Below the pieces are notes generated by a model, which ran no database searches, was not told where the DNA came from, and saw only the letters and a program-made list of their open reading frames with translations. A program made the translations under genes and the position numbers. Of a DNA stretch of 64,000 bases, positions 382 to 49,392 are shown in pieces; the first letter of the stretch is position 1, and each line of letters begins with the position of its first letter. Origin of the DNA: Chrysophaeum taylorii (lineage: Eukaryota > Sar > Pelagophyceae > Pelagomonadales > Pelagomonadaceae); the NCBI GenBank assembly GCA_029834535.1, contig JAQMWT010000268.1, positions 1-64,000 on the forward strand, read 5' to 3'.

Positions 382-633
382 TGTAGTGGTTTTCTCAGAC
401 ACCCGCCCCCCTTGGCCGGGCCAGAGGCCTCAACAGCCCTTTCTCCCAACCCGAACCGCGGGTGAAACCACCACACGCCCGATCTCAGCGCAAACACCTC
501 ACGCCATCACGATTCGTCGACACGAAATCGGACAATCAAAATGAGGGCAATAGCAAGAAGACAGCAGGAAAGCAATACAAATGCCTGGTACATTGGGTTC
601 AGTGGAAGCGCAGGTGAGGATGTCAAGGTGACA
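382..633 (-). repeat. 3' LTR of the Ty3/gypsy element
   Basis: On the plus strand it starts TGTAGTGG and ends TGACA. The same sequence recurs at 18269-18412, except that this copy has about 108 extra bp in its second half. A run of eight G (minus strand, 634-641) directly precedes it and fits a polypurine tract. Confidence 0.7.
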
Positions 634-790
634 CCCCCCCCATAATTGCTAGGGCAACAATCAGGGTAAGTCAGGTGGCAGGCAGGCAAGTGGGGGGAAT
701 GGGCGTTACTGCCACAGGAGCCCCCTACTTGAGATGAAGTCGTCCTCGACTTAAGGGTGACGAAGGTCACGCTCACGAATGGTACGATAA

Positions 791-978
791 TAGAGAACAG
801 TAAAAATCACTGTGCCTCTGGTAGAGAATGATGGCAGTGGTAGTGCTGCCTTTCGTCCTGTCCTCTAACGACACAAAGAGCAGCACGGTGTGCGACACAG
901 CGATTTAGTGGTTGTAGGTGTGAAGTGTGGTTAAGGGGGGGGGGGGTTCCTAACCCTAAATGGAATTTTCTATCTCTA
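791..978 (-). repeat. Left terminal direct repeat of the nested element
   Basis: 188 bp, nearly identical to 9027-9213 in the same orientation. It contains a run of G followed by TTCCTAACCCTAAAT. The target copy GATAA lies just outside at 786-790. Confidence 0.85.
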
Positions 979-1286
979 CGCCCTCGCAGATTGAACTCGG
1001 TGATGAGCGAAATCTGGGACAAACAAAACAAATGTCTGGCCAGGGACAAATGGATGTCGAGTCGTGAGGAGGCGTTGAAGGAAAGTGTGCGAAGTGCATG
1101 AAAGAGATAGAGGAAAACGAAACGCAGGTAGTGTGTGAAGTGAGAAAGGAGAAAGAGAGGATGATCAAAGAAAGGAAAAAGCATCGATCGTGAGTAAGAA
1201 GAAAAGTGGAGGAAGATGCTAAGTAGGCTAACGATGAAGTATGGCGAATGTTGTGCGAGAGAGCAGATCGTCATCTTGCTCGGTGG

Positions 1287-2930
1287 CTAATGATATAGGG
1301 GACGGTGTGTGCCGGTGGATAAATCCGAAGTGTCTGGGGGAGCATTTGAGTAGAGCAGGTGATCTAACGAATAATAACAGGAGGGATCATGGGTCAGGCA
1401 GTCGGGAATTGTGCAGCAGACCAATGGTTGATCGAAAGGCGAATAATGAGAGTGGCCGTAGGGATGAGATTCTATTGTGGCTAATGTTGGGCTAGTAAAG
1501 ATTTGACGATGTGACGGAGCGCCAGCGTGATCCCATGAAGAGATATGACCATTTAACCAAATCGGTTTCGACATGGTAAGGTGATCGTCGTAATGAGAGC
1601 GAGCAAGGCGGAGCTGTTTCTGGAAGATGAGAGAACCAGAATTGCCTGTCACATACGTGTCAAAGCTGTCGTCCTGAGTGTAGCGTGGGACAGCTGAAGC
1701 TAGGCTATGAGCGTCTAAAATAATATGCGGATAATCGTAGCGCGATGAGGATATCGGGATAAAGTTGTCTGGGGGTGGCCATAAATATGAAAACTCTAAA
1801 TTTGCTGTAGCTTTGGGTTCGTAGTCTCGTGTAAGTCGCCAGTGGCTATCATCGAAAGATGATTGGGCGGAGACTGAGGTTTGCGAGTGTATCGCGTATG
1901 ATGGTGGATACAGGCGTGTGTCCTGTGCTGACGAGTCGGTGCCCTGTGCAGAAAATGCAGAAGAGTCGGGCAACAGAAGAAAATGCCTGAAGGCGATGGA
2001 CTGCTTGAAGATAGTGTCCGTGCCAGGGGGAGAGTTGACTTCGAAGGTATGGTCAAAGTCGCATCTTTTGTGTTCTGTTCGATAAAGTAATCCTGAACTG
2101 TGACAATCGACTGATCTATTCATTTCATGTCCGGAGTCGTTTTCATCAGAATCAAACGAAGCGTTTTCACCAGAATCAAACTTCCCTTGATGTACAAGCG
2201 CGAGGGAGCGTGGTGCATCCCTGGTGAATCGTGCAGTGACTGAAAGGGGAGACATTCGACAGAAGGGTGTTGTCGATATGCGAGAGCTGTACAGTTTACA
2301 ACGTGTAGGGAGCGTATGTTTCAAGAGAGGATTAATCTGTGGACGGGGGATGTCCGAAGAATGAACATGATGTGAGGTCCTGTCCATAATGCGAGAACTG
2401 TCCGGCAATGAGTCATGTGAGACTGTGGCTAGCAGCGAGTGTGTGGGAATGAAGAAGTGAATAGTCATGGCAGTTAACTTCCCTTGATTCGTAACACAAC
2501 TGGGTGGGGCTAGCGGTGTGCGGCAGTGAGATGCGGTGAAATGCTTAGAGCAGAGCGCGTGTCCAACCTGTGGAGATTGGGAGTTATCCTCGCGGGTGCT
2601 ACGGAAAGCGTCGGCTGGGTGCGAATCGCAATGGCGGCTGTTGGGCTCAGAGTTCTGCAAGATGGAACCTGCAGTGCGAACGGAGAGGAGCGAACCGAGT
2701 GCGTCATAAGAGCGTAATACGCTGGTGCTGTCTGAGCTGTGTCCGAAGCATGATTCCGATAACAATGTCGACAGATGCGAGATATGATCAGAACTGGACG
2801 AGGATTTCGCGTGAAGTTGTGTTGTAACCGAACCATAGTGGTGCAGAGCTTCAACGTCAAGCATAGTGCTGGGAGGGACGTGAAGAGAGGTGAGTAAAGG
2901 TGAGTAAAGGACTCTGCGTGCGGCTATCAT
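1287..2930 (-). CDS. Last long ORF of the nested element, unknown
   Basis: 547 residues overlapping the end of the giant ORF by about 70 bp. Composition is the same: Ser, Asp, His, Thr and Pro rich, with patches such as S-S-S-S-S-D and S-F-D-S-D-E-N-D-S-G. No domain is recognised. Another open stretch (1274-807) runs on into the left terminal repeat. The shared composition suggests a single ancestral product or a run of related products. Function unknown. Confidence 0.45.
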   Translation of the reverse strand: MIAARRVLYSPLLTSLHVPPSTMLDVEALHHYGSVTTQLHAKSSSSSDHISHLSTLLSESCFGHSSDSTSVLRSYDALGSLLSVRTAGSILQNSEPNSRHCDSHPADAFRSTREDNSQSPQVGHALCSKHFTASHCRTPLAPPSCVTNQGKLTAMTIHFFIPTHSLLATVSHDSLPDSSRIMDRTSHHVHSSDIPRPQINPLLKHTLPTRCKLYSSRISTTPFCRMSPLSVTARFTRDAPRSLALVHQGKFDSGENASFDSDENDSGHEMNRSVDCHSSGLLYRTEHKRCDFDHTFEVNSPPGTDTIFKQSIAFRHFLLLPDSSAFSAQGTDSSAQDTRLYPPSYAIHSQTSVSAQSSFDDSHWRLTRDYEPKATANLEFSYLWPPPDNFIPISSSRYDYPHIILDAHSLASAVPRYTQDDSFDTYVTGNSGSLIFQKQLRLARSHYDDHLTMSKPIWLNGHISSWDHAGAPSHRQIFTSPTLATIESHPYGHSHYSPFDQPLVCCTIPDCLTHDPSCYYSLDHLLYSNAPPDTSDLSTGTHRPLYH

Positions 2931-5900
2931 TTGGTGGCGGGCATTTATTGCGCGAGACTAGCGATAACTGCGAAGTGTGGCGTTGGCGTGACTGAACTTC
3001 GTTTGCATATGGCAGCATGCTGGATAAAATCGAGCGAGGGTGGAATGCTGAAACTTGAGAGGTCTGACCTGCGAGAGATTGACGGAAGAGCGTGGGAGGC
3101 TCTGAATTGCATTGATGACGGAACTTTGTGTCATCACAAATCGTCGGGGATTTGATCGTCGGGAGTCGCGTTGAAGCGGGGAGGAACGACGAATACTCAT
3201 CAGGTCTTGGCGTGTGACAGAGGTCCTTAGAAAGAGGGACTTCGGTACGTGCCTTGAATTGAGTTCCGATGTAGCCAGAGTAGCCATAGGAGGCATGACT
3301 GATACGAATCGAAACGAATCTTGTCGTCGGTGGAATACTAATGCGCCCTCGTAATTCGAACTGGGTGAAATCTTCGAATTGCCGGTGCCGGTGAGACCGA
3401 GAGACCATGATTGCGAAACGAGCGCGGAGCCGGGCGGCGGTCGGAGGAGGCGCTTCAGCGGTGGCTGAGACGACAGTGTTCTGCGTATCATGAATCAAAA
3501 GGTGTTTGGGCATCGTACTGTGCGACAAGCGAGCGTGCGTCTCAGTTGACTGTGAGTGTACCATGGGTATGGCGCAATGTTCGTAGTCTAAACCGAGAGG
3601 GGCGGTGAGCGTGCCGTCGCGAGTGCATTGTAGCCTGTGCGGTGTCTGGGCTTTAATCGGAATATGACATATGACGTCATACAAAGCGATGGGAGCTGAA
3701 TCAGACGTGATGGGACTGGCTAGTAGTGCCGGGAGCAGCATGTCGGGGGTGGCGCTCAGAGATGAGGGTGGAACGCAGTCCACTTCTATCTTGGTTGCCG
3801 TGTGTCGCGGTACTATGGGCGTAAACAAATGACATGAAGTAAATGCTTGTGTCCCAAACGAGAATGCGGTTATAGTCGCATGGGGAGGTTTCATTTTGTC
3901 TCTGCTGCAGTCAAATGCTTTGGAGGAAACCAATGGAGAAACCATGAGCACATGGGTGGCGTCTGGTGGCCAAAGTTCCTGTGGGAGTGGTTGAGGTGAC
4001 TCCAAAGTAGGATTCCTTCTTGGGTATGACTCAAGCGTTGCGATGAGTTCATGCTCGAGATCATAGTCGTCCAATAGATGACTTGAGGTGGTCGCGAATG
4101 AGCGATACGTCGACCTGGTGTCAGGGGAGACCGAGGTGGTGCAGTGACCTGACTGGCTGAGGTAGCCGTGCTGGTAAGATTCCAGCGGGTGCGCATAACT
4201 CTGCAGAGTGCTGACATTGGCTTGTGCCTGATCTGCAGTCGTGCAGGGAGGCGAGATCGTCTGTGCTAATACGGATTGCAGCGACAGGGAAGGGTCAGGT
4301 GCCTGGGGGGCTGAGAGGCGGCCTTTGTCTTCCAGAGGCGAAGGGGTCAAGCAAAGCTGTAGCTTCGTCTCGTCGTGATCGGATAGGCGCAATGGGCTTG
4401 TGCGCATGATCGTGGTGCGTTTACCTGTGTCTTCATGATGTACCTTTGTGTCCTGTGGTGGTGCTTCTGCGAGCGGGACATATCTTAAGGATTGGTCCAT
4501 CGGATGGGGTGCATCAGCTATGAATGAGACAGGAGCCAGTAGCAGTGCAAGGTCAGGTGACAGAACGTTTGCGTGGTCGAGTAATTGAGCGTTGGACCTG
4601 AGCATCGTCTGCATAGTCTGGAACCGTGCTGTGCAGTTGGTTTGCGTTGTCTCGTCTGCTACATCAATGAGCTGGCTGGTGTAGCTGGCCGTTGTGGTCT
4701 TATCTTTCGTCTTGTCGTCCAATAGAGACTGCGAGATAGTACTCGTTGCTATGTGCGAGACTTTAAGTAGCTGTTGAGCAGCTGTTGAGAGCTGAGTGCT
4801 CTCTTGTCTGGCAGTTTCTGTTGCTTTGGAGTTCCAGAGACATGATTGCGCAGCTTCGGACGTCTTGGCATTGGGGATTGCCATAAAGTAACTCGTAAGT
4901 TCAAAGTCGGACGTCGGAAAATGCATCGAAAGACCTGTGAGGTCACCAATTGAAATACGCCCTCGTAAGGCGTGCGCGACGTGGTGCGGGCGCGAGCGAC
5001 TTAGGTTGGTGATCTGAAGGTCGTGAGATACGTTGCGGCGCGGAGTGTCGGTGGAAATGACGAGTGTCGTGGTGTTAAAGGCGGTGACGCGGAGAGCATC
5101 GAAAAGCGTGTCATGCTCCAAGAGCGAAAGCGCGTGATGCGGGTGGTCCGAAGTCAGTGCCAAAAGGAGTGTGGCTCGCGGCTGACCTGTCTGCAAGGTA
5201 GGGCAGATGGGCGCGTGAGCTGAGATCCCGTGGTGGAGAGTATCCGGCCTGAAATGCTTGGGGTCCAGTGCGGGAATTCGAAAAGAGGGGTCGCCGAAGG
5301 AGAGTGCAGTTGAACCAAGGGCGATGTAAGGGTCAGTCCTGCTGGGTGCATCCTCAATAGCGGAGATGCTGGGACCAGAGCGGTGAGTGCCGTAGTGACC
5401 AGGGTTGCCCTTAGGCGTGTAGAGCATTCGAAGGTGCGGGCATGTGACATGCGTCCTCAAATGAGGAGTGACGTGCTGAGCGATAAGACGCTTTTGAGGG
5501 AGGCAACGTACGTGACTTGGGTGCATGTTTGTGGTGGAGCCGGCAGCTGGCGTGGAACGTTTGTCGTGCATTCCAGTGATGCGAAAATGCTTACAGAAGT
5601 GGTTCAGTTGGAGCGAGTCTGTGCATAGTGCGCGGAGAATGTTTCCTGAGAGCGCAACGTCGATTTTCCGGAGGCAGCGCAAGCGTGTGGCGTCCAGAAG
5701 AGAGCTATGCAAGGGGACATACAGGACCGAAGTGGTCGCAATGGAATCGTGCATAGTTTGCGGCTGATCGGGTCGTTCAGAACTCTCGAAATCTGTGTCT
5801 GTTACTGCAGCCATGGGGAAAGCTTTCCAGAGGCTTGGTCGCGGTGAGACATAAGGATCGGCAGTCAAAAGGAGTGCGTCCTCTGACCGAGAGTTGGGGA

Positions 5901-6429
5901 GCGGGTGATCAGGTGTTGCGACTGGTGCTCGTGCGAAGACATCCATCAAATCGTTACATGGTGGTCGCAGATGGGTCCATGCAACCTGCTGAGCAGTGTC
6001 ATCCAGTGCATCCAACCGAGAAGGTGGATGGTGGGTGCAGCAGCAAGCGCCGGTGAGCGGCAGTGCGCGCCCGTCTTCGAGGAGGGGAGGCGGCGAGGCG
6101 GAACCAGCTTCGAAGTGATCGGGAGCTGCTGATCGAGAGGTATCGAATAAGGCGGGAATGCCTTGTGAATCTGAGCTGATACCCGCAGGTGCGGTGAGTG
6201 CCTGCGAGTATGTTGACCGTGGGACCGTTGACAGCGTGTCTTGTCCTTGTGGATACAGCATTGCGGGGTCATTGGTGGTGCTTGGATCAGGCGGCTGATC
6301 TGTAATGGTCGAGGAGACCATCTTCGAGACTAGTGAAGTGGGTCTTGCTTCTTCGCTGTATGCATCATACCAGGGGACTGAAGCAGAGGGGATGTTGTCA
6401 GTGGCCTGCGGCTCTTGTGCCCGGTGCAT
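2857..6429 (-). CDS. Giant uncharacterised ORF of the nested element
   Basis: An uninterrupted reading frame of 1190 residues, far longer than chance allows at about 50 percent GC, so it was probably translated. The protein is rich in Ser, Thr, Pro, His, Asp and Ala, with no membrane segment, no obvious zinc site and no domain I recognise. Two copies of an L-R-G-R-I-S-I motif occur in it (DNA near 4,960 and 3,343), and related L-R-G-R motifs lie outside at about 6,780 and 979. The frame may continue upstream toward 6,850. A structural or linker-rich polyprotein is possible; no function can be claimed. Confidence 0.5.
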   Translation of the reverse strand: MHRAQEPQATDNIPSASVPWYDAYSEEARPTSLVSKMVSSTITDQPPDPSTTNDPAMLYPQGQDTLSTVPRSTYSQALTAPAGISSDSQGIPALFDTSRSAAPDHFEAGSASPPPLLEDGRALPLTGACCCTHHPPSRLDALDDTAQQVAWTHLRPPCNDLMDVFARAPVATPDHPLPNSRSEDALLLTADPYVSPRPSLWKAFPMAAVTDTDFESSERPDQPQTMHDSIATTSVLYVPLHSSLLDATRLRCLRKIDVALSGNILRALCTDSLQLNHFCKHFRITGMHDKRSTPAAGSTTNMHPSHVRCLPQKRLIAQHVTPHLRTHVTCPHLRMLYTPKGNPGHYGTHRSGPSISAIEDAPSRTDPYIALGSTALSFGDPSFRIPALDPKHFRPDTLHHGISAHAPICPTLQTGQPRATLLLALTSDHPHHALSLLEHDTLFDALRVTAFNTTTLVISTDTPRRNVSHDLQITNLSRSRPHHVAHALRGRISIGDLTGLSMHFPTSDFELTSYFMAIPNAKTSEAAQSCLWNSKATETARQESTQLSTAAQQLLKVSHIATSTISQSLLDDKTKDKTTTASYTSQLIDVADETTQTNCTARFQTMQTMLRSNAQLLDHANVLSPDLALLLAPVSFIADAPHPMDQSLRYVPLAEAPPQDTKVHHEDTGKRTTIMRTSPLRLSDHDETKLQLCLTPSPLEDKGRLSAPQAPDPSLSLQSVLAQTISPPCTTADQAQANVSTLQSYAHPLESYQHGYLSQSGHCTTSVSPDTRSTYRSFATTSSHLLDDYDLEHELIATLESYPRRNPTLESPQPLPQELWPPDATHVLMVSPLVSSKAFDCSRDKMKPPHATITAFSFGTQAFTSCHLFTPIVPRHTATKIEVDCVPPSSLSATPDMLLPALLASPITSDSAPIALYDVICHIPIKAQTPHRLQCTRDGTLTAPLGLDYEHCAIPMVHSQSTETHARLSHSTMPKHLLIHDTQNTVVSATAEAPPPTAARLRARFAIMVSRSHRHRQFEDFTQFELRGRISIPPTTRFVSIRISHASYGYSGYIGTQFKARTEVPLSKDLCHTPRPDEYSSFLPASTRLPTIKSPTICDDTKFRHQCNSEPPTLFRQSLAGQTSQVSAFHPRSILSSMLPYANEVQSRQRHTSQLSLVSRNKCPPPNDSRTQSPLLTFTHLSSRPSQHYA

Positions 6430-6861
6430 GGAATACGGCGGAGCTTTAGATTCTTGGGTGTGGTTGCCATAGTCGATGTAGGCGTAATACTCGGGAACAT
6501 CTTGAGGTGTCTTGGTCTTTGACTTGTCGAAAGTGGGAACAAGATGGCTTGGTGTTTCTTCGACAATATTGCTTCCTGGGCCGTTGTGCCCGAAGAGAGA
6601 AGAAGCTCTTATGCATGTCTTGGCAGCATGATGGTGAGCATGACCATCTGGTAAAGAGCTGTCTTTTGATAGTTCGGAACTTGTCGACTCTTGATTTGGG
6701 GTGGTCTTGATTCTTGGTGGGACTTTGCACGTGGTGATCGTCGCTGGTGGTAGGGGTACGGTCGCCGGTGTTGAATGTGCGCCCTCGCAACTCGGACGCG
6801 GGGATGTGGTCGAGTTGGAATGAACCAGGTAGCGGATAAGGCGAGCGGGTGCAAAGGGGTT

Positions 6862-7150
6862 CTAACTAACTAACTAACTAACTAACTTCGGACCTCTCCC
6901 TTGCATGGGAGCCAGGCTGGGCCGGCAGTTGCCGGTCCAGGATCACAGAGCAAAAATCACACAGTTGGGGTAGAGGCGAGGGATGAAAGGGCGTGGATGG
7001 CGGACCGCCACTGCGCGCGGTCTTGTGCGAGGTCGTGCCACGAGTTGAAGGGGATGTCGCATTTCCGGAGTGCCTTGGCGAGCGACCTCCCGTACGTCAT
7101 CTGCGGAGCCCCCAGTGGGCGTTTGGGTGCCAAAGAGGCGAAGAGTGAGT
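6862..7150 (-). mobile_element. LINE 3' fragment (RT tail, 3' UTR hairpin and GTTA tail)
   Basis: On the minus strand the end of a LINE ORF is readable (Y-G-R-S-L-A-K-A-L then F-N-S-W-H-D-L-A-Q-D-R-A-Q-W-R, stop at 6957). A GC-rich hairpin-forming 3' UTR (GGACCGGCAACTGCCGGCC type) and a (GTTA)6-like tail at 6862-6888 follow. It is 5'-truncated, as expected of target-primed insertion. A related but more decayed copy lies at 33645-33990. The 5' boundary is approximate. Confidence 0.75.
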
Positions 7151-8117
7151 GGGTAGAGGAGGAGGGGCCAGAGATGGCGGGGGGTTGAGAACAGAGAGAC
7201 GGAGTGGGTGGTGAACCAGGAGAACCAGATCCGGGGCATCCGTGGAGGTGGTGATGATACTCGGGGAGAATCGGGGGAGAGGCATTGGAGGTTGGTTCGG
7301 AAGGGGATGAAGGTTGGTTGTGGATGGGGAAAGGAGGTAAAAGATGCGATGCAGCATCTTGGGTGGGGTGAGTGGCATCCAATGAGGTAAGAATGGTTTG
7401 GAGGACGGCGTTGGTTTCAAGGTGGGAGCTGCGGATGTCAGCGTGGGCAGTTTCGAGTGCCTTAAGCTGGGTGTGGGTTAGATGGTGTTCGGCTTGGGTG
7501 GAGACCAGTTCGTCGGTTTGGATGGCGAGCTGGGCAGTGGCGAAAGCCAGGGCGGCGTCGGTGGTGGTGAGTTTGTTGGCTGTGGAGGACAAAGCGTCAT
7601 CCTTGCGAATGAGCATGGCCTTGGTTGCGGCCAATTCAGCGGTTTGGGAGCGGAATGCAGCCGTAGTGGCGGCCAACTCGCGTTGGAGCGCAGACGGAGG
7701 TGCATTGGAACTTGGAGAAAGGTGGTGGAGTGTTGCTTGAGTGGGGACTTGAGTGGGAACGGAGGAATGGTCGTAGTAGTAGAATGCATAGTCACGCGGG
7801 TGGAGGTGCAAATCGGGTGAACAGCGACTTTCGAAAGGTGACGAAGGTCTGTCATGAGGGTGCGATGGTTGGGCGGCAGGAACTTGAGCACGCGGAAGGA
7901 TCTGTGGTAGAAATGGAAGTGCCGGGGTCGTCGTGGCCGTAGGTGGCATGGTCTTGTGGATGGAGAGGAAAGTCCTGCGGAGAGTGACTGGCGGAAGATG
8001 ATGGATATCGGACAAGGGAATCCGACAGTGGGGCGGCATGAGCTTGAGCCGCGGTGGGGGCTTGGTCGGGGATGAAGGTGCCGGGGCCGTCATGGCCGTA
8101 TATGGCATGATCATCAA
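6957..8117 (-). CDS. Second ORF of the nested element, coiled coil, ending in LINE sequence
   Basis: 386 residues. The first third is Pro/His-rich. Residues about 140-250 form a strong Ala/Leu/Thr coiled coil (repeats of the type E-L-A-A-T-K-A). A Pro/Ser-rich linker follows. The last 50 residues, including W-H-D-L-A-Q-D-R-A-Q-W-R, are the C-terminal tail of a LINE reverse transcriptase, contributed by the inserted LINE 3' fragment. The native end of the ORF therefore lies upstream, near 7,150. Function unknown. Confidence 0.45.
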   Translation of the reverse strand: MMIMPYTAMTAPAPSSPTKPPPRLKLMPPHCRIPLSDIHHLPPVTLRRTFLSIHKTMPPTATTTPALPFLPQILPRAQVPAAQPSHPHDRPSSPFESRCSPDLHLHPRDYAFYYYDHSSVPTQVPTQATLHHLSPSSNAPPSALQRELAATTAAFRSQTAELAATKAMLIRKDDALSSTANKLTTTDAALAFATAQLAIQTDELVSTQAEHHLTHTQLKALETAHADIRSSHLETNAVLQTILTSLDATHPTQDAASHLLPPFPIHNQPSSPSEPTSNASPPILPEYHHHLHGCPGSGSPGSPPTPSLCSQPPAISGPSSSTHSLFASLAPKRPLGAPQMTYGRSLAKALRKCDIPFNSWHDLAQDRAQWRSAIHALSSLASTPTV

Positions 8118-8805
8118 GAAGATGAGTGGTGCGGCGAGAGGGTTGACGAGGATGTTGGGGAACTTGTATATGTGGTGTAGCGGGAGTTGCCGATAGTGGG
8201 GAGTTAGGCTCCAGTGAAGGAGGTGGAGGCTCCGGTGGGTGTGGAGTGAAGGGAGTAATGTTCATTGGTGGTGGTGTGTTCAACATTGCTGGTGCGATGT
8301 TTGAACAAGTTGGAGTGTCCTCGTGAATGTGGGGTGTGCCAGGTTGTGGAGTAACCTTGGCTATGCCTGCGTCCGGAGGGAAGGCAGTTGGGTCTGGGAC
8401 TTTGCCGTGGGGTGTTTGAGATCCAGTGGGGTTGTCGGCATGAGGGGGGGTGACCATCGAGATGATCGTGTCTTGGGTCGCGACTTCGGGAGAAGTTTGC
8501 TTGTGCTTGAGGGGAGTTGCCGTATGAACAGTTGGTTGGGGAGCTTGTTCAAGTTGCTCGTCTTGATCGAGTTGCACTTCTTGATCGAGTTGCTCGTCTT
8601 GATCATTTGCGGCAGTGAGTTTGGCTCTGAGATCAGCGTAACCAGCAGCGATTTTGGCTTGCAAGGCAGCATTATCAGCGGCGTGTCGATCTAAGATATC
8701 ATCTAGGAGCTGTTTGAGCGGTTGCCAGAAAGCTTGTGAGTCTTGTGGTGTAGCGAATGGCGTCGCTGATTCCAGACTCGGAACTTGTTGGTCGTGAGTC
8801 GCCAT
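7852..8805 (-). CDS. First ORF of the nested element, unknown, disordered
   Basis: 317 residues starting about 220 bp inside the right terminal repeat. The N-terminal 70 residues are helical (Q-A-F-W-Q-P-L-K-Q-L-L-D-D-I-L-D and following). A Gln/Asp/Glu repeat (D-Q-D-E-Q-L-D-Q-E-V type) comes next, then a long Pro/Thr/His-rich tail. By position it could play a Gag-like role, but no Gag signature or zinc knuckle is visible. It overlaps the next ORF. Function unknown. Confidence 0.5.
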   Translation of the reverse strand: MATHDQQVPSLESATPFATPQDSQAFWQPLKQLLDDILDRHAADNAALQAKIAAGYADLRAKLTAANDQDEQLDQEVQLDQDEQLEQAPQPTVHTATPLKHKQTSPEVATQDTIISMVTPPHADNPTGSQTPHGKVPDPTAFPPDAGIAKVTPQPGTPHIHEDTPTCSNIAPAMLNTPPPMNITPFTPHPPEPPPPSLEPNSPLSATPATPHIQVPQHPRQPSRRTTHLLDDHAIYGHDGPGTFIPDQAPTAAQAHAAPLSDSLVRYPSSSASHSPQDFPLHPQDHATYGHDDPGTSISTTDPSACSSSCRPTIAPS

Positions 8806-9026
8806 CGTTTTTGGGGTTGCGTTTTGCGCGTTGTTGGTTGCCTTTCACACTTTTTCACACCTTTTCACCAGTAGCAAGCGATGAAACTTGACTACGGTCT
8901 TAAAACTTTCAGGAACTTCAGGAGATTGCTCTTTTCTGGAAATCCTGTTTCTTTGTCCGAGACGTCGATCGAGATCGATGTCTTTCGGAGGACGTTTCTC
9001 TACCAGTACCGGACTGGGTCCTTACC

Positions 9027-9213
9027 TAGAGAACAGTAAAAATCACTGTGCCTCTGGTAGAGAATGATGGCAGTGGTAGTGCTGCCTTTCGTCCTGTCCT
9101 CTAACGACACAGAGAGCAGCACGGTGTGCGACACAGCGATTTAGTTGTTGTAGGTGTGAAGTGTGGTTAAGGGGGGGGGGGTTCCTAACCCTAAATGGAA
9201 TTTTCCATCTCTA
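9027..9213 (-). repeat. Right terminal direct repeat of the nested element
   Basis: 187 bp, matching 791-978. The target copy GATAA follows at 9214-9218. Between it and the first ORF (start 8805) is a leader of about 220 bp in which I see no feature. Confidence 0.85.
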
Positions 9214-9384: not shown

Positions 9385-10660
9385 TTATAAGCGTCGCTCG
9401 GCCAGGGGCTCAGTAGGATCAAAAACACGAGGATCATCGCGCGGTCCCAAATCGGTAAAGTAGTGAAGCGCAACTGTGTCATTGTCGTGATCATATTCTT
9501 CATAGACTTCGGCAACGTAGATACGCTTCTTCCACGCATTGGATCGTCCTTTAACCATGAAAATCACGAACTTATCATGTTTGAAACGGTCGCGGTCTGA
9601 AGGTAAATGCAGAGGGGATGAAGAAGTGTCGATGGTTGGCACTTTCAAAGGCACAATCTGTTGTACAGATACTACAACCGACTCAGCATCATTGTCGTTG
9701 ACGTCCTGAATTTCGTAAACGACGGGAGAGATCTTTCTGGCAACTATGTAAGGCCCGCGCCAAATGGGCCGTAGCTTGTGGCGCGTCTTAGGCACGAAAC
9801 GCAGAACATAATCACCTGGGGGAAACTGGATGTCAATTTGGTGGGCATCATAGTTGAGTTTTTGGCTCTTCTGTGCTTTGCGGTGAGCTCGTTTAACGAG
9901 TCGACTATAAAATTCAATCTTGTTCTTAAAGTCCATCAAAATCTGTTGACGTGATTGCGGTAGATCACGCTGTTCACCCAAAAGATTGTAATCGGGTGGT
10001 AACAGTGGTTGCTTGCCAGTACGCATCATGAAAGGTAAAATCTTCGTTCCCGGAATGTGCATCCTATTGTACATGAATGCCACATATGGGAGGAAATTCG
10101 ACCAATCTGGCTGACGCTGTTCATCGATCGCAGCTCTTAAGAAGGCTTTGATAAATCGGTTGACACGTTCAGTGTGGTTACTCTGAGGGTGATACGGAAG
10201 GGTAGTACGATTACGTACGTTGAATTGACGAACAAACGTGCGAAATAACCTGTTCGCGAACTCATTTCCATTATCCGTGACTATGCACCGTGGGAGACAT
10301 CCCTCAAGTAAAATCTTGTCCACAACCGCGTTCAAAATTGAATAATCATGCTTGGTGTTGATCAGAGCCAATTTCAAGAAATGCGACGCTGCATCGTGCA
10401 TCGCGAGTATGTACGTGTACAGGTCAGCACCTCGCAGAGGTCCAATCAGATCCATACCTAGGACATAGCAATTTCCGACGCGATTCGGTTGACAGAGCAA
10501 GCCATGACGCTTAGGCATGGTGGATCAAATCTTCTTGCAAATAATGCAGGCATTGACGAACTCATTAACTGACGATGAGACGTTTGGTCACCAATACCGT
10601 TCTAAGATTTGATTCGCTGTGGAGTCTCGTCCTACATGGCCTCCGAACAATCTTCGGTGA
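9385..10660 (-). other. Integrase of the Ty3/gypsy element
   Basis: An HHCC zinc-binding motif (H-x3-to-x6-H, then C-I-I-C, about 10,660-10,540) precedes the catalytic core: D-L-I-G-P, T-D-N-G-N-E-F and H-T-E-R-V-N-R, the DDE triad of retroviral integrases. A GPY/F module (W-R-G-P-Y-I-V-A) follows, then a tail with V-A-E-V-Y-E-E-Y and V-A-L-H-Y-F that could be a small beta-barrel (chromo-, tudor- or BAH-like) chromatin-targeting domain; that last idea is inference. Confidence 0.88.
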
Positions 10661-11099
10661 TGCATGGCGATTACACGCTTCCGCTAGACGGAGGGACCAC
10701 AATAAGACGTTGAGAATCCGAATCATCGACCTTATACAACACGTTGTTATCAACTTCATACGGTACGGATGACTGCTCGTCTTGATCTTTCTGCTCAGAA
10801 TCCCGAATTCGGCTGATTCGCTTGCATGTGTCATCTTCAGCTTGTTCTTTCGCTATCTCATCGAGAGTGATCTCATCCTCAGCTTGATCCGCGAAAGGGA
10901 GACGTTCGACGGAGTCAACTGGCTCAGACTCGTAAGAGAATTGAAGCGGATGTACGTTCTGTCGCGTACTACCTGCTGCCATTGCTGCGGTGGGTCCGCT
11001 GTCCGTCGGTATAGGCATCGTCACCGAAGAGAAGGTGAAACAAGCTGTGCCAGGTACATCGGTGGGGATTTCTTGGAAAATCAAAAAAGCTTCATTGAT

Positions 11100-12420
11100 C
11101 GGTTCCTCGTCTTCGTCTTTCTCGATCAACTTGTCGATAGGTTTGCGCGACAGACAATCCGGGATGCGCATGCCAGGGGAAATTCCAGGCTTGTATCCGA
11201 GCTCCCGGTCGAACGCAGCGCGCCGCATAGCCCATCGTGCTAACTGTCCAGACGTATGATTCGAATCCCGAAGAAACGTTAAATTACGATGATCCATCTC
11301 TAATTTCGTCTGATGACCTTCGATATAAAATCTGAAATTTTCAAGAGCGGAGAGTACTGCGAGGAGTTCCAAGCGCCGGGGATCATACTTCCTCATCGAC
11401 TTAGGCACGGCTTGACTCCAGTGCCCAATAGCTCTCTCTTCTATTCTTTCTCTTCCATCGTCGTCGTCAACGACTGGTACCTTTTGAAATAGGTAAGCAC
11501 CCAACCCATGCGCGGAAGCATCAGTTCGAATGTAGAAAGGTAACGAGTAGTCAGGATGGTAGACACCCTTCGAAGTGACAACAGCCTCTATGATGGCATC
11601 CCAAGCTTCCTGACACTCTTTCGTCCACTCGAATTTTACGTCCGGAAACGTCAGTTGTCTTAATGGCTCTGCAACTTTCGCAAAAATCCTTACATAACGC
11701 CGGCAAAAACTCCCCATTCCAAGGAAAGACCGCACTTGCTTCTTAGGGTCAGCATCCGACAAAGTGCCAGGAATTGGCATGTGTCTGATGGCTTCTAAAG
11801 ACCTCGGTGATGGAAGAAGTCCGTTCGTGGTGGATAAATGACCCCAAAACTCAATGACTTCTTGCACAAAATGGATCTTCTTGATCTTGGCGCAGTACCC
11901 TTTCAAGGCGAGATGGGGAATAACTTGCACAAGGCACTGCAAGTGATTCTTTGTATCCGCGTGACCGGCGAGAATATCGTTGATATATGCCACGAGATCA
12001 CGATGTAACCATTTCGACAAGTCAGTGTTCAGCTGCTTACATAACAAACTTCCGGCTGGTTTGACTCCCAAAGGTAGACGCATGTAGCTGTACGCTCCCA
12101 GAGGACTAGTGAAGGTTACCACATCTTGTGCATCTAGCGACAATCGTAAATTGTGATAGCCCCAACGAATATCCAAACTGGAACGACAGAACTTCGTCGA
12201 TGAGAAACATCAACGCGTCAGCCATGCTCACACTCGGCCAGCTATCATCTTTGAGCAATGCATTGAGGCGTCGTAGGTCGACAGCTGCCCTGTAAGTATT
12301 GGAAGTGCCAGTCTCAGCGCCTTTCTTAGGCAACATCAAAATAGGGAAACCCCACGGAGAATTCGCGGGACGAATAACTCCGTCTCCGGTCCATTCTTCA
12401 ATCTGCATCCGCAAACATTA
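11100..12420 (-). other. Reverse transcriptase and RNase H domains of the Ty3/gypsy element
   Basis: Fingers and palm motifs are readable in order: G-V-I-R-P-A-N-S-P-W-G-F-P and the R-A-A-V-D-L-R-R-L-N strand, then F-T-S-P-L-G-A-Y-S-Y-M-R-L-P-L-G, the catalytic loop near 11,985, and the thumb. RNase H follows, with F-Y-I-R-T-D-A-S-A-H-G-L-G-A-Y and a D-H-R-N-L-T-F-L motif. This is the standard Ty3/gypsy arrangement, used to copy the element RNA into DNA. Confidence 0.9.
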
Positions 12421-13129
12421 AATCTTTTCTTTCGACAACCAATATGGCGAGAGTTTGACGGGAGTCGGGTTCTCTTCTTTGAACCGGAGCGTCACTTCAG
12501 GTGAATCAACAGGTCTCATCACATCATCGAAAAATGCCCACGAATACGAGATTAGATGCTTCATCATCAGCTTCTCGTCATCATCTAAAGCAGGATGCTC
12601 TGTAATACCCAATTCAGTCATCACCTCTTCGACCTGCGCGACGGTCGGAGGGATGACCTGCATGCTCTCCTGATCCGCTAAATGAGGAGGCATCACCGGT
12701 AAAGGTTGACCATGTTCGTCGTGAGGCGCGTCCGCCCACGGAACGTCGTACTTATTAAAATACGCAGGTCGCTCCTTCGCGGTGCCTTCTTCTCCAGCAG
12801 TTGCGGAGGGCTGGTTGTCGGCTTGGTTGCTCTGCATAACAGCAGTGGCGACGGTGCCCCCTGCAAAAGAGGGAGCCGTCCCAGGCGATGTAACCGAAGG
12901 TGGTGGCGGGGTGGTGGGGGCAGCAGCTGATGGTGTAGGACTCGCAGGAGAATAGAGTTCATCGGGCGGAATCCATGACTCACTTCGAGTGGCAGGGTCG
13001 AGCGTTGGAATGCGCGACTCTACAGCAAAAGGTGAAAACCGGAGAATATGGTGATCAGGTTGGGCTAGCGTAGTCGTCGCAATATTCCGCAACTTCCCCA
13101 AATTTCGAAGTGAAGGGTCAAACGAATTG

Positions 13130-13960
13130 TGCACTGCTAGCGCGATCCGCGTCATAGTCGCGGGTGGCACTATACTGCCAAGCATCTTCATAGCTGCTGA
13201 CTCTGAAACTGTCTCACCCCATTGCCACGTAGCAGGAACGGTCATAATTTCCTGATGCATCTGCAACGTGAGCGGACGGGTGTTCGAGAAATGAGGTCCT
13301 AGGTGGAGCTTATTACGCGTCACTGTGAAGGCAGGGCCGATAGCCGGGCGCGTAGATGAGAAACTGTTCACTATAATGAGCGGGTGACCACCTGTAAATC
13401 CCAACGCTGGCCCAAAACGGTCCCTTAAATTCGGTGGTACACGCGATAATAACGGCAGGTTCAAGCGAACATTGCACGCAAGTAGGCGTGTGCGCGAGCA
13501 CAGCAACTCTGGTGTAATACTATAAAAATCGACAATGCGCGGCACATAAAATTGGTGATGCACAAATGGGATCACTGATGGTTCCTGCTCGAGCGTCCAT
13601 CGTCCAATTACACAAGGTGCGTTGCGGAAATGACGCAGGACCCAAGAAGTAATAGTAGCGCCCTTGCGTGCGTCCCTGTAGTGCAAATTGGCAGTCGACC
13701 CATAGATACACGGTGGACTTGCGTGAAAATAAGAGTGCTTCCAAAAATCTGAATGTAAATACGACAACACCTAGTCGTATGTACGACGATGAGATTTCCC
13801 CAACTCGTTCAAAACATAGGGAATCTTCGGAAAATTGAGCTCAAAGGTGGCTCGGGCTTGAGGACAAGCATCCGAAGCCAAGACAATGCGAAATGAACTG
13901 CCATATAGCTCATTGCATCGCCGGATACCCAACGTTGATCCTCCAGCGCCAGCAAAGTAG
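13130..13960 (-). other. Cytosine-5 DNA methyltransferase domain inside the retroelement
   Basis: The core motifs of a C5 DNA methyltransferase appear in the canonical order. Motif I is FAGAGGSTLGI (about 13,956), the AdoMet-binding loop. A motif II-like acidic residue and A-T-F-E-L-N-F-P follow. Motif IV is H-A-S-P-P-C (about 13,710), holding the catalytic cysteine. A motif VI-like L-E-Q-E-P and a motif VIII-like S-R-T-R-L-L (about 13,490) come next, then motif IX-like R-P-A-I-G-P-A-F-T-V and motif X-like G-S-I-V-P-P (about 13,165). The domain is about 275 residues, roughly the size of a bare catalytic core, with no sign of BAH, PHD or CXXC modules. It lies on the same strand as the pol domains, between protease and RT, so it is part of the element and not a host gene. 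The long acidic stretch before it may be a linker. Confidence 0.82.
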
Positions 13961-14749
13961 ACGACGACAAAGGTGTAGGTGATGGGTATCCAAACCAAGG
14001 AGGCGTGCTTAGATAGCAGCTCCTTAGCGGTCGCCTCCATCTCCATTTCTGGTGTTTTTTTCACTTCTTCATCTGGAGGTGGCTCAGGAGGAGGTCTGTC
14101 ACTTAAGACATCCTCCTCGACTTCATTCTCGTCAACAGCAGCCATGAGAGTCGCATGACAAACGTCCTCAATGGCTTCTAGCTGCATGTTGACATATCCT
14201 TCATGCGGCACGATCTCGCCTTCGACCACCGGGACTTCGGGGTCGATACCAATGGGTTCTTCACCAATGTGCTCCACGGCCACATGAACTTCGTTGGGCT
14301 CGTCGGAGCAATACGATGAATAAGAGCCAGGTACGAGGCGGAGATATGGGAGGAGTGACCGATGAGGTCGGAATACTTGGCCCTTTTCCAGCGGCATATC
14401 GCACTCCATCTCCAAGAAGTACGGTTGGCTCGGAAGAAGAAATCGAGTACTCGTCACGTACGCGAAATGAGGGATGGTAACTTCCTCGTCCGCGGGGCAT
14501 TTAAGTTGGTCTTCCGCTTTTTCAGCAGCCTGATCACCGCGATGAGCATGATGGTGGTTCGCTCTGGCACCAATAGAGCGCAGCAGGCAGTCATAACTCC
14601 ACGGTTCACCAACTGGCGTCCAAGCTTGGTTATTCCCGTCTTGTATAGCGATCATAGCTGTCGGGAACATCTGCACTACCTGCGGAGTCGCATCGAATGC
14701 ATCATTGTAAAGGACAACTCCATGCTGGTCTTGTGGCGAGGCGGAAGTC

Positions 14750-15180
14750 CGATTCTTGAGAACTCCGATGGTCACTTCAGAACGCCGGAAAATAGCTCTC
14801 TCTGTTGCATAATCCAAAATCGCACCCAAGAGTCGTAATTCTCGTGCTCCCAATAGTAACTGCCCATTAGTTTGACCAACAAAGAACATGAGCAGTATGG
14901 ATGTCGTTGGCACCAAGGAGATCCGGAGAATGACCCATTCTCGGATAGCAGCTCCCGAACCTCCTGACCCATTCAGAGTACGAATCGTAGGGAGTGGCTG
15001 ACGATAGATGATTTTGCCGTCACGATCAAGTTTGCGATACAAGCGGTGATCGATGTAGGGGGAATCAGCCATGCCATCCAAACCGGCAGCGATGATGGAA
15101 TATTTCGAACCATATAGCGAAGAGACAGCCACAGGCACATACGTCAAAGAGGCGGATCTCGTGCCATCGTACCTCACGGC
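14750..15180 (-). other. Retropepsin-like aspartic protease domain of the Ty3/gypsy element
   Basis: The segment directly after gag has the layout of a retroviral aspartic protease: a strand ending in a short Asp-containing loop followed by Y-I-D (about 15,080), a middle beta-rich part, and a closing motif of the type L-L-G-A-R-E-L-R-L-L-G-A-I-L-D. In Ty3/gypsy elements this protease cleaves the polyprotein. The call is by position and pattern, and the sequence is divergent. Confidence 0.55.
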
Positions 15181-15219
15181 TTTATTTTCACGATGGTCGG
15201 GATCCTGAGTGGTATTCAA

Positions 15220-17690
15220 CGCAGTAGGCAGAAACTCTCGAAATCCGAAGAGATGGAAGGGTGAGCGGCGTAACGCTCGGCGCAGTCGTCCCTCGGTGGC
15301 ACTATATCCATAGCAACCAAGGTATCTCGTCCCACACGAACGATCGTATATCCCAATCCATCACGATTATCTTCGTCTTCCGAGGGAACTCTGGGTGCAA
15401 CTCCGGTCACTTCGGTACTTTGCCCCTGCTCCTCCACCCACGCATCTTCAGTGATGACCAAAAAGGAAGGAGGTTCCATGGGCTCACCAGGGGAATAGCC
15501 TTCTGCAGAGAAGCTATCATCATCGCCTCCAACATCGTCATCGTCACCGTCATACACGTTGCCCTCCATGAGCTCAGAATACTGCACAGTGCAGTAGTCC
15601 GCTCGCTTAGCGTCATCCTGATCTTCGCCAAGCACTTCAAGCCACTGAGCGGCGACACCATCATTGCGCTGGCTAGGGTTTGCTCTCTGCGACTGTTGCC
15701 CTCTCACCGTTGGAGCCGTCTGCTGTGCTTGACGAATCAAGTTCATCGTGTTGAGAGCCGTAGTCAGATCCTCCAGGCGCACCGAGGTCTGAGCGGTCCG
15801 CTGCACTGCGGGCTGCCTTCGGACCACCTGCTGTTGAGTGCCTGCAACCAACCGCTGTTGAGTGCCTGCAACCAACTGCTGTTGACCTGCACCTGGAACC
15901 TGTGCTGCTGTGTAGACCACCTGCGGCTGTTGCACAACGCGCGGCGCTAGCTGAGTCACTGAAGCCTGTCCTGCTGCAGCTAAAAGCGCCCGTCGGTATT
16001 GCTCCTGTCCCTCTGGCGTCGCTGGAAAACCCGCATTCGTCAACGTCTGAGCAGCACGTCTCTTCCTCGAGGGATTGTCCGGCACAGGACACACACCGTT
16101 GTCGTGGCCAAAACTACCATGCCGGCCGCAACTAAGGCACGTCGTAATTGCTTGGCGCGTATTGGTATCTATCCCTTGTGGTAGCCAGGTTCCAAATCCC
16201 GAGTCAGTAACATAACCAACCCGTTGTACTGGCTGCAACTGCTGCATCTGCTGCTGCTGCTCTCTCCTCATCCGTGGTGCGCGCTCCTTTCCCTTCTCCT
16301 TCTTAATCGCCTCTTCGATGTTGGCAGTAGGGTTGGCTTCCAAAATCTTGGAGATCTGGATGGTCAATTGAATGACATCATTGAGCGTTAGAGTAGATGC
16401 TTTCATATGAGGTGAGGCCTGAGCAAGTTCGACACTCGTCCGCAAGCGCTCAGAATTGAGCCCAGCAATGAAGTGCGAACGGAACGCGGCAGGATCAGTA
16501 TCGCGACCTGACATTGCTCGCCACTGGCCGAATTTCTGCACCCACCGCGCAATATACTTGCTCAATGACAAATTCCCTTGCCGTAAATTGAACCATTCAC
16601 GTTCAAGCTCCTCAACCGTAGCCCGAGGTGGGCAAGGAAGCTTCGTCTTCTCTTGCATAGCATCCAGACAGTCCTCATCATGCTGGCGCAACTCTTTTAA
16701 TGTGATGGTTCCTTCCTTGTATTGTTTCCACATCTGCGGCCGTTCGGCTTCCCATTTGCGATAAGCTTCCATAGGGGCAAGTTGATACTCGCCTCCGATC
16801 ACGTTCATCGCTATTGAGGGTTTCTCAATTCTGCCTTCCATCATACGCCGCAATTGCATCCACCATGCGTCCACCTCATCCCGGTCCTTAGTAATTTGCG
16901 CATTGAAGAGGCGAAAACGTGATAAGAGTCATACCAGCAGCTCCTTTCTTGATATGAAGTATCTCTTTTTCGATACGAAGACGTGCTGAACCGGGGTCAG
17001 TATGATGCTGCGGGGTAGGCTCCGGTCGACTTCGCGGTGGCTGATCATCGGTCAGTGCCGATACAGCGTCATCTTCTTCGGGCGTAACACGCGTAGCATC
17101 CGGAGAGACCGGCCGTGCCTCTCGAGCATGCGCCCGCGTGGATTCCTCCACCATTCGTCGAAGTCGATCGTTTTCGATCCGCTGCCGCTCCACTTCTGAG
17201 CGTTGTTGTTGCGCGTCGCGGCGAGTGCGCTCAATTTCAAGTAGGACTTGCTCGAGCTGCGACTGACACATCTCGAATCGCTCGTTGATGGCCCGCAGAA
17301 TCTCGGGGTCGGTGTTCACTCGAAAATCTGCCGCAGCTTTCGTGTTTGCGGATGGTGGCCTAGGAGGTGCACTCTCCACTGGTCCACGCATCGCCGTAGG
17401 AACTTCGGGGTCCGCTCGAGATGACTCCGTAGCATTCATCGCACGTTCGTAGGGTCGTGCGTACGGGAACGTCGGCTCATCCGGTCTTGAAGTTGCGTCT
17501 GGAACAACCGTAGCTCCCCCTTCGCCGGCGCGTGGATCCGGAAGGATGACCACGCTTGGGGGGCTGTCGAGGCTATCCGATGATCTTGTCTCTCTTCTGA
17601 TGCCGCTTTCCACAGCTTCCGGCCGTTGAAAGGGGGGTACTACTGAACGGTGTTCTTCCAATAGACGCACATGGAGTCCCTGCACCGAAT
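15220..17690 (-). other. gag region of the Ty3/gypsy element
   Basis: The upstream part encodes a Pro/Ser/Arg-rich stretch followed by a coiled coil (Glu/Arg/Gln heptads near 17,100-17,300). Downstream is a helical capsid-like segment with the retrotransposon-gag signature W-F-N-L-R-Q-G-N-L-S (about 16,580), then a Gln/Val-rich linker and a CCHC-like zinc knuckle near 16,100. Acidic residues dominate the end. This fits a Gag that assembles particles and binds the element RNA. Assignment rests on order and motif resemblance, not on a database match. Confidence 0.7.
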
Positions 17691-17938
17691 CGTTGCAGAC
17701 CCTCCTGTGCGTCCCGAAACCACTGCGGTCGTTCTGTCATTGGCCTTTCTGCTCACAACTCACTTGTTATATTCCTTTTCGTCAGACGACACTTGCCGGC
17801 AGCCGTCTGACTGCGCGCTGGTACCGGTGCGCTGGACTTACGGTAGGATTTGCCTTGCGCGTGAAGGCTGTGGACGGCCTTCCCGGTGCTGTCGCTCGCC
17901 GTCAGGGAGGTGGTCTGCCTCGCGCGAGCTAGGTTAGG

Positions 17939-18080
17939 GCGCACTTGATTTTTTTTTGCTTAGGTAGGTCTTACAATGCTTTGCCTCGTGGAGTCGTAGT
18001 GAGCACGAGCTGGTTAGGGCGTACTTGATTTTTTTTTGCCTAGGTAGGTCTTACAATGCTTTGCCTCGCGGAGTCGTAGA
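17939..18080 (-). repeat. 80-bp tandem duplication in the retroelement leader
   Basis: Two copies of a unit (CTTGATTTTTTTTTGC then TAGGTAGGTCTTACAATGC and CCTCG-GGAGTCGTAG) start about 80 bp apart in the untranslated leader between the primer-binding site and gag. No function is evident. Confidence 0.75.
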
Positions 18081-18245
18081 GACTCCGCTCCCCGTTCGAT
18101 CCGAGTCACGTAAAATAAACCCCGCGGCGGTACCCGTGATCCCCTGGATCTTCACCCACAAATGCGTCGGCTTCGCACTCACTCGACCGTTACGAACCGA
18201 CTCGCCACCGAAAAACAGGAGATCGATAGTCCAGGAGTTAGACTA

Positions 18246-18267
18246 TCGATTCCCGTTTCTGAGACCA
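18246..18267 (-). promoter_or_regulatory. Primer-binding site of the Ty3/gypsy element
   Basis: Starting one base inside the 5' LTR, the minus strand reads TGGTCTCAGAAACGGGAATC. Its complement ends ...TTTCTGAGACCA, with a T-loop-like TCGATTCCC before it, as expected of a tRNA 3' end with CCA. The complementarity looks longer than the usual 18 nt. The tRNA species was not identified. Confidence 0.65.
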
Positions 18268-18268
18268 C

Positions 18269-18412
18269 TGTAGTGGTTTTCTCAGACACCCGCCCCCCTT
18301 GGCCGGGCCAGAGACCTCAACAACCCTTTCCCCCAACCCGAACCGCGGGCGAAACCACCACAAGCCCGATCTCAGCGCAAACACAAGCGCAGGTGAGGAT
18401 GTCAAGATGACA
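18269..18412 (-). repeat. 5' LTR of the Ty3/gypsy element
   Basis: Matches 382-633 in the same orientation. It is followed on the minus strand, after one base, by a TGG-starting primer-binding site, which makes it the 5' LTR. Its outer flank (18413-18512) also resembles sequence next to the purine tract, so a remnant of a neighbouring copy seems to abut it. Confidence 0.7.
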
Positions 18413-18512
18413 CCCCCCCCCATAATTGCAAGGTCCGTACCAGGGCAACAATCAGGGTAAGTCAGGTGGAAGGCAGGCAAGTGGGGGGAATGCGCGTTAC
18501 TGCCGCACTTCA
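18413..18512 (-). repeat. Remnant of an adjacent element copy next to the 5' LTR
   Basis: This stretch (C8, CATAATTGC, then CAGGGCAACAATCAGGGTAAG) matches the interior of the element beside its purine tract (634-712), with a 13-bp difference. It lies outside the 5' LTR, where host sequence would be expected. Confidence 0.55.
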
Positions 18513-18616
18513 GGGAGCGCCAAGAACGCTTACAGAAACGCCAACGGCCCCTACGTCTCTCGGCCGCCGGGTCCCTGGCGGCGCTCGGGCGGTTAGGCTA
18601 ACGCCTTGCCGTCCCC

Positions 18617-18716
18617 CTTACACCACTCACCCCACTCTCATTTCAGCTCGACGATCTTCTCACCCGCCAATCTAAGCTGCTTTGATCAGCGCACATTCGC
18701 TAACCTTTGAGTTTAA
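18617..18716 (+). repeat. Dispersed repeat A, right-flank copy
   Basis: Same sequence as 193-310, in direct orientation, about 200 bp outside the 5' LTR and just upstream of the ORF starting at 18760. The CTCATTTCAG word looks like a splice acceptor, but no matching intron could be shown. Confidence 0.7.
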
Positions 18717-33644: not shown

Positions 33645-33990
33645 AGCTAATTTCGGACCTCTCCGACAGAGAAAAATCACACAGTTTGGGTAGAGGCGAG
33701 GGACGAGTACGCGTTGATGGCGGACCGCCACTGCGCGCGGTCTTCTTATACGAGGTCGTGCCACGAGTTGAAGGGGATGTCGCATTTTCTTCCAGAGCGC
33801 CTTCGCGAAGGAAGACATCCCGCCAGGTTTTGCGAACAACTCTTCCTTCTTCTCGTCGCGTCGCAGGCCGCGGACGTTTTGGTCCACGAACAATCGACCC
33901 GTCCGGCGCGAACCCCATCCCAGCGCAGACTTTCCGGGTGCTAACCGCCGGCATTCATCGTCTTTGGAGATATAGAGAGCGCGCCCAATA
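33645..33990 (-). mobile_element. Decayed LINE 3' fragment
   Basis: The minus strand shows the same RT tail as at 6862-7150 (K-C-D-I-P-F-N-S-W-H-D-L, then D-R-A-Q-W-R-S-A-I-N-A). Upstream sequence of the W-D-G-V-R-A-G-R type is here broken across frames, with at least one stop and one frameshift. The 3' UTR hairpin is deleted, and only GGAGAGGTCCGAAATTAGC remains of the tail. It is older than the copy at 6862. Confidence 0.7.
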
Positions 33991-35129: not shown

Positions 35130-35455
35130 CCTCATGAATCCTGAGCCTTGCGAGGGCATCCGCCCTCCCGGCGTAGGTTGGCACCTATTCGCCTCCCGGG
35201 CGGGCCGGTTGGCAGCCGGAACGTTCGCAGTGGGACAGGGTATGGCCGGGGGGCGAAGACGGAAGGTTATCGACGAGTTGGTTGTCAGTCACATCGCGGT
35301 CTCCTCGTCGCATGGCGACAAGCTTGATGGTGACTCTCCGCCGACCGACCTTTCGGCGCTCCTCGTCTACAGGCCCGTGATTCCGGACTGGCACCTGTCG
35401 GTCCGGCCTGGCTCCCATGCTCGGGAGAGGTCTGAAGTTAGTTAGTTAGTTAGTT
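35130..35455 (+). mobile_element. SINE-like repeat with LINE 3' tail, copy 1
   Basis: About 300 bp ending in the shared hairpin (GGCACCTGTCGGTCCGGCC), CCTGGCTCCCATGC and (GTTA)4. It is nearly identical to 49817-50112 (two residue differences over 78 when translated) and similar to 48919-49187. Unlike the LINE fragments it lacks the RT tail. A short open frame ending in S-E-V-S runs into the tail in all three copies. No clear Pol III A/B boxes were found, so it may be a LINE 3' piece of another subfamily instead of a true SINE. Confidence 0.7.
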
Positions 35456-35611
35456 ACTCCTAAACCCTTTATTTTGACCCTTACCCGAAAAGAGTGACCC
35501 TAGACCCCTTTTTTGTACCGTTGTACAACTTCACACCCGCCGTTTGCCACGTACCACCGTAACGGTTTGTGGCGATCGGTTCTTTATCCTAACTACTAAT
35601 CGACAGATGTT

Positions 35612-49187: not shown

Positions 49188-49192
49188 ATTAA

Positions 49193-49387: not shown

Positions 49388-49392
49388 ATTAA

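Follow-up and report, generated by a model that had tools for sequence, protein, structure and literature searches.

A decayed Ty3/gypsy-type retrotransposon copy from Chrysophaeum taylorii with a C5-cytosine DNA methyltransferase domain encoded in Pol

Results

Anatomy of the element

The window, i.e. the whole 64-kb stretch of DNA that was analysed, carries eukaryotic genes, among them ORFs for a PH-myotubularin protein (964 codons) and a WD40-cyclophilin protein (684 codons), a tyrosinase, a G-beta WD40 protein and others, and neither Rfam at gathering score nor ARAGORN reported anything in it. On the minus strand from 18507 to 382 lies one old, decayed copy of a Ty3/gypsy-type LTR retrotransposon with the order gag, protease-like region, methyltransferase (MTase), reverse transcriptase (RT), RNase H and integrase. 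Its parts, in the direction of the element, are:

18269..18507, minus strand: 5' LTR, TG...CA (repeat search, sequence reading)
18246..18267, minus strand: primer-binding site, complementary to the CCA-terminated 3' end of a tRNA-like sequence (reading; one site in the window)
16888..17736, minus strand: gag-like N-terminal ORF in a different frame (translation)
15216..16928, minus strand: gag; its CCHC-like motif (CLSCGRHGSFGHDNGVC) is spaced non-canonically; PF03732 at E 0.0053, below the cut-off
12418..15360, minus strand: Pol frame running from the protease-like region through linker and MTase into the start of RT; closing stop at 12418-12420
14791..15165, minus strand: retropepsin-like protease region (LDGMADSPYI, LLLGAREL) with a non-canonical active-site triplet (by-eye reading)
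13111..13989, minus strand: C5-cytosine DNA methyltransferase domain in Pol (P0001, 293 codons; PF00145, PHROG 116, low-confidence fold model)
10671..12420, minus strand: reverse transcriptase and RNase H (PF00078, PF17919 and PF17917 above cut-off; Ty3 RT as top PDB matches)
9385..10670, minus strand: integrase, with a core carrying D, D and E and an HHCC part (PF00665, PF22938)
791..9213, no strand assigned: nested insertion of a second element, bounded by direct repeats of 188 bp (97.9% alike); 5 bp of target, GATAA, duplicated (repeat search)
717..733, minus strand: polypurine-like tract adjoining the 3' LTR (reading)
382..716, minus strand: 3' LTR, TG...CA, carrying ~0.1 kb of inserted sequence that the 5' LTR lacks (alignment of the two LTRs)

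The class of the element is given by its enzymes. When RT-RNaseH was compared with the PDB sequences, the solved Ty3 enzymes were the best of 17 matches (4ol8, E 5.5e-33; 7q5b, E 5.7e-33). The integrase (9388-10524) follows the RT (10671-12209) on the minus strand; PF22938 scores above its cut-off and PF00665 gives E 1.8e-7 and 31.8 bits, below its cut-off of 32.6. An integrase downstream of RT is the Ty3/gypsy order, unlike that of Ty1/copia elements. The N-terminal gag-like ORF matched no family above cut-off, and no slippery heptamer (XXXYYYZ) was found in the gag/pol overlap.

Over 227 aligned bases the two LTRs show 15 differences, of which some adjoin gaps. An outer target-site duplication was not found (CGCAC at 377-381, CTTCA at 18508-18512) and may have been lost through rearrangement. 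Between the integrase and the 3' LTR the host element is split by the nested 8.4-kb insertion, the terminal repeats of which read TAGAGA...TCTCTA. Its plus strand is strongly G-skewed, and its ORFs on the minus strand, 1334 and 556 codons long, have no Pfam match.

Other repeats occur in and around the element. An 80-bp unit is present as a tandem pair at 17922-18082, in the leader adjoining the 5' LTR. A dispersed repeat of ~100 bp (199-299, 18614-18715 and 38492-38587; 82-86% alike, with a TTTCAG splice-acceptor-like site) flanks the element on either side and occurs once more in inverted orientation. A repeat of 0.6-0.85 kb is found in three copies, 88-91% alike, at 34326-34949, 35684-36311 and 37726-38398, and one of 270-290 bp in three copies, 95-99% alike, at 35165-35456, 48919-49187 and 49814-50105, with a near palindrome at 49182-49398. 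Positions 6945-7081 and 33666-33808 have a fragment in common (86%), whose coded tail we take to resemble the tails of non-LTR retrotransposon proteins.

An MTase domain within the Pol frame

The Pol frame (12421-15360) contains 1 stop in 980 codons, compared to 37-45 stops in the other five frames, and the longest run with at most one stop in 500 base shuffles was 287 codons. The MTase is in frame with the protease-like region on one side and with the RT on the other, and we therefore regard it as a built-in domain of Pol and not as a host gene dropped into one copy. This bears out the proposal of the initial annotation that a Ty3/gypsy element carries a C5-MTase between protease and RT. The protease itself was read by eye as protease-like; the region has no Pfam match even at E <= 10.

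Since searches with five parts of the element (gag, protease-linker, MTase, RT-RNaseH and integrase) found a single copy of each within the 64-kb window, one might argue that this copy alone picked up a DNMT gene, from the host or a virus, the element family being without it. We consider this very unlikely, as a random insertion would rarely keep the frame on both sides without a frameshift, as is seen here, and as the MTase is flanked on both sides by linker-like stretches, that on the RT side being rich in proline.

According to the Pfam profile search, a check named in the initial annotation, the domain (METHYLTRANSFERASE, 13989-13111, minus strand) matches DNA_methylase, PF00145, with 40.6 bits and E 2.7e-10 when an X is put at its single stop (cut-off 22). 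Scored separately, the two halves fall below the cut-off, one with E 0.0088 over profile positions 7-46 and the other with E 0.0023 over 261-321, in the correct order along the profile. PHROG 116 matches the domain at E 2.8e-10, and the NCBIfam model dcm gives 26.1 bits, far below its cut-off of 100.65. The following motifs were located:

13939..13956, minus strand: motif I, FAGAGG, SAM binding (position 12 of P0001)
13771..13773, minus strand: in-frame TAG interrupting the MTase after motif I and before motif IV (X73 of P0001)
13708..13719, minus strand: motif IV, SPPC with the catalytic Cys (position 91 of P0001)
13585..13593, minus strand: motif VI, LEQ replacing ENV, Glu retained (position 133 of P0001)
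13486..13497, minus strand: motif VIII, SRTR (RxR) (position 165 of P0001)
13162..13278, minus strand: motifs IX, RPLT, and X, GSIVPP (positions 238 and 271 of P0001), in the C-terminal PF00145 part (profile 261-321)

Thus, a complete C5-cytosine MTase domain is encoded in Pol on the minus strand: motifs I, IV, VI, VIII, IX and X are all present in P0001 and stand in canonical order. Of 20,000 shuffled versions of the domain, none had motifs I and IV together. The initial annotation had read the canonical order correctly; it had placed the domain at 13130-13960, short of its extent of 13111-13989, and had not reported the in-frame TAG or the other decay. In a 9-row alignment motif IV (SPPC), E134 of motif VI and R166 and R168 of motif VIII are invariant, the other eight rows being stretches of viral contigs that had been selected for motif IV.

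Did the domain methylate at all? LEQ instead of ENV in motif VI and GS instead of GN in motif X would suit a structural or targeting part which bound DNA or SAM without methylating. On the other hand, the catalytic Cys, the Glu of motif VI and the Arg pair of motif VIII are all kept, and we hold such a part to be quite improbable. Judged from its sequence, the domain with LEQ in place of ENV may have had either DNA or RNA as its target.

The predicted model of the MTase has a mean pLDDT of 49.2, i.e. low confidence, and its fold matches are supporting at best. A PDB fold search with this model returned 134 matches at E <= 0.001, and among the matches listed all 50 of 50 belong to the C5-MTase family; they include DNMT3A and DNMT3B, and the tRNA methyltransferase DNMT2 ranks high. 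At the same threshold there were 35 viral fold matches, of which 20 are named cytosine methyltransferase, 14 are nameless and one is named DNA polymerase. Against the assignment counts that the domain alone found nothing significant among the PDB sequences, 8yf3 being the sole match at E 0.11.

The copy is dead

Besides the TAG within the MTase, the RT has the stop at 12418-12420, one frameshift, and YIND at the active site where YxDD is expected. The integrase core retains D, D and E; the HHCC part lies in a different frame and contains stops. Because of the TAG, the damage to the RT, the broken integrase and the 8.4-kb nested insertion, this copy is dead and at present does not methylate its own DNA. 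Readthrough of the TAG, or a programmed stop, was considered and rejected, since motif I and motif IV lie on opposite sides of it and the RT is damaged as well (stop, frameshift, YIND). Any MTase activity would be that of ancestors or sister copies.

CpG composition of the element

CpG is low in both LTRs, with 16 compared to 26.2 expected (4 of 500 shuffles as low) and 13 compared to 21.2 expected (5 of 500), the two LTRs being one homologous sample for this statistic; TpG and CpA are above expectation. The low CpG could be what methylation of the LTRs might leave. Two observations count against such a reading: CpG is not depleted in the interior of the element (650 compared to 600.8 expected), and the nested element and the MTase have raised TpG as well, there without low CpG.

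Origin of the MTase domain

We compared the MTase with three eukaryotic references. An alignment with DNMT3A, the only Dnmt3 reference aligned (KnitGypsy-Dnmt3 was compared by description), gave z -0.8, with 162 of 200 shuffles as high, and z -0.7 with 164 of 200 when motif IV was masked. DNMT1 gave z -0.6. The highest of the three values, z 1.7, came from the N-terminal part of DNMT2 and is not significant (15 of 200 shuffles as high). Motifs IV and X of the MTase, SPPC and GSIVPP, differ from GSPC and GRSWSVP of DNMT3A. The low affinity for Dnmt3 is no proof of another origin, because DNMT1 and DNMT2 also align near the level of shuffles.

The motif IV pattern was found in 21 stretches of viral contigs, eight of which were picked by eye for the alignment. 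These eight rows align with the MTase at z 3.1-8.1, and at -1.2 to 3.0 once motif IV is masked. Since motif IV is common to them by selection and z falls with masking, we draw no kinship. In a tree of the window MTase, the eight rows and the three DNMTs, 2 of 9 inner branches were starred. The fork parting the window MTase and the viral-contig rows from the three DNMTs has values of 86/87 and was not starred, and the end branch of the window sequence is very long (3.23). Overall, the tree does not resolve the position of the domain.

Relatives were also sought in sequence collections. Patterns in the viral contigs gave 5 stretches for the MTase, 15 for the RT and 1 for the integrase, and no relatives for any of them; none was found either by the motif I pattern, by a 28-mer of the LTR or by a 23-mer of the dispersed repeat. 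A plasmid search at E <= 1 had no match. The phage search at E <= 10 gave 45 records, the best E among the matches listed being 6e-3 with 33% of the query covered. A bacterial scan confirmed 1 locus out of 36 stretches, which was rejected as a chance match from its ORFs.

Discussion

The closest precedent is KnitGypsy-Dnmt3 of Klebsormidium nitens, described by de Mendoza et al. (2018; PMC5890265): like the element presented here, it is an LTR Gypsy with a C5-MTase in the Pol ORF. Its DNMT is a Dnmt3, whereas our MTase has no detectable affinity for DNMT3A, and its repeats are arranged as in DIRS elements, whereas here one LTR stands at each end; the hosts, too, seem to differ. The DNMTs of KnitGypsy have a Ka/Ks below 0.2 (PMC5890265). 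Two dinoflagellate elements are described in the same paper. SymbioDIRS-Dnmt3 also has its C5-MTase in the Pol ORF of the RT; it is a DIRS element with a tyrosine recombinase, in contrast to the DDE-type integrase and Ty3-type RT found here. SymbioLINE-Dnmt resembles our element in that an orphan C5-MTase resides in a retroelement, but it is a LINE without LTRs, with the MTase in an ORF upstream of the RT.

Orphan eukaryotic DNMTs outside DNMT1/2/3/5/6, some of them in LINEs or endogenous giant viruses, are C5-MTases in mobile DNA as is the case here; the section of PMC12344493 that treats them gives no case in a gypsy Pol. That paper names the known DNMT elements as Copia and DIRS, where the original description (PMC5890265) has Gypsy, DIRS and LINE. 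Additional domains of other kinds are described for an orchid Ty3/gypsy element with an m6A demethylase, which modifies nucleic acid (PMC9289625), and for Ty3/gypsy elements with a chromodomain, which is a chromatin domain (PMC3350952). PMC6338049 says in loose terms that Stramenopiles, Rhodophyta and green algae have Ty3/Gypsy and DIRS elements that encode DAM and DCM, and in view of this gypsy elements with a C5-MTase may have been reported before. Besides KnitGypsy-Dnmt3, no gypsy with a C5-MTase was among the matches listed from the open-access literature.

Is the MTase a further capture, as the initial annotation suggested for a host that is neither dinoflagellate nor charophyte? Such a host is likely: the long ORFs without interruptions speak against Symbiodinium, in whose genes the median exon measures 65-68 bases, and Klebsormidium is unlikely too. 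In kind the capture is not new, given the KnitGypsy-Dnmt3 precedent. As a separate event it is probable: the domain shows no detectable affinity for DNMT3A and differs from it in motifs IV and X, so that an orphan MTase was probably taken up independently. The MTase could alternatively be a fast-evolved Dnmt3 of the same lineage as KnitGypsy-Dnmt3 or another described DNMT retroelement, in which case nothing new was captured. The element class and the Pol ORF agree with KnitGypsy-Dnmt3, the low-confidence fold matches include DNMT3A and DNMT3B, and the long end branch indicates that the domain is very divergent. These points are opposed by alignment scores with DNMT3A that do not rise above those of shuffles, with or without motif IV, and by the different motifs IV and X, and we judge a Dnmt3 origin to be unlikely.

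In our preferred reading, which we consider likely, the locus is a decayed Ty3/gypsy copy with a C5-MTase in Pol, the MTase of its ancestor methylated the element's own cDNA, and the capture was separate from that of KnitGypsy-Dnmt3. The initial annotation had supposed an element that methylates its own DNA; this copy cannot do so now, and for the ancestor the activity is suggested by analogy. In the intact ancestor, the protease would have freed the MTase, alone or joined to the RT, within the particle. There, the MTase would have methylated cytosines of the fresh cDNA prior to integration, by analogy with SymbioDIRS-Dnmt3. Until integration, such methylation could have let the cDNA pass as self or protected it against nucleases and deaminases of the host.

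The analogy has an experimental side. In yeast, the Pol-embedded domains of SymbioDIRS-Dnmt3 produced de novo CG methylation, while KnitGypsy-Dnmt3 and SymbioLINE-Dnmt produced none (PMC5890265). The authors treat the negative results as inconclusive because human DNMT3B failed too. Even so, the negative result for KnitGypsy-Dnmt3 counts against an analogy with SymbioDIRS, since KnitGypsy is closer in kind to our element.

These data also bear on whether the MTase acted on RNA, e.g. the genomic RNA or the tRNA primer, instead of cDNA. RNA methylation was raised for SymbioLINE-Dnmt by de Mendoza et al. (PMC5890265), and the lack of yeast DNA methylation by KnitGypsy-Dnmt3, inconclusive as it is, points the same way, as do the high rank of DNMT2 among the fold matches of the weak model and the z of its N-terminal part. 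However, that z is not significant, the model has the low mean pLDDT given above, and the domains of SymbioDIRS-Dnmt3, embedded in Pol, methylated CGs of yeast DNA in the account of PMC5890265. We therefore think an RNA target rather unlikely and favor methylation of cDNA by the ancestor.

We hypothesize, tentatively and somewhat short of calling it probable, that a Ty3/gypsy lineage outside charophytes and dinoflagellates independently captured an orphan (non-Dnmt3) C5-MTase, which became a lasting part of Pol between protease and RT and whose main target for methylation was the LTRs. A Gypsy with a DNMT in Pol is already known in KnitGypsy-Dnmt3, and retrotransposons that encode the mark by which hosts silence them have been described in a few algae. 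If our hypothesis is true, such an event in a further lineage, involving a different type of MTase with a clear place in Pol between protease and RT, would show a recurrent strategy and not an accident. Independent captures could then be compared, and the use of the methyl mark would become testable, be it protection of the cDNA, passing as self or restraint of copy number.
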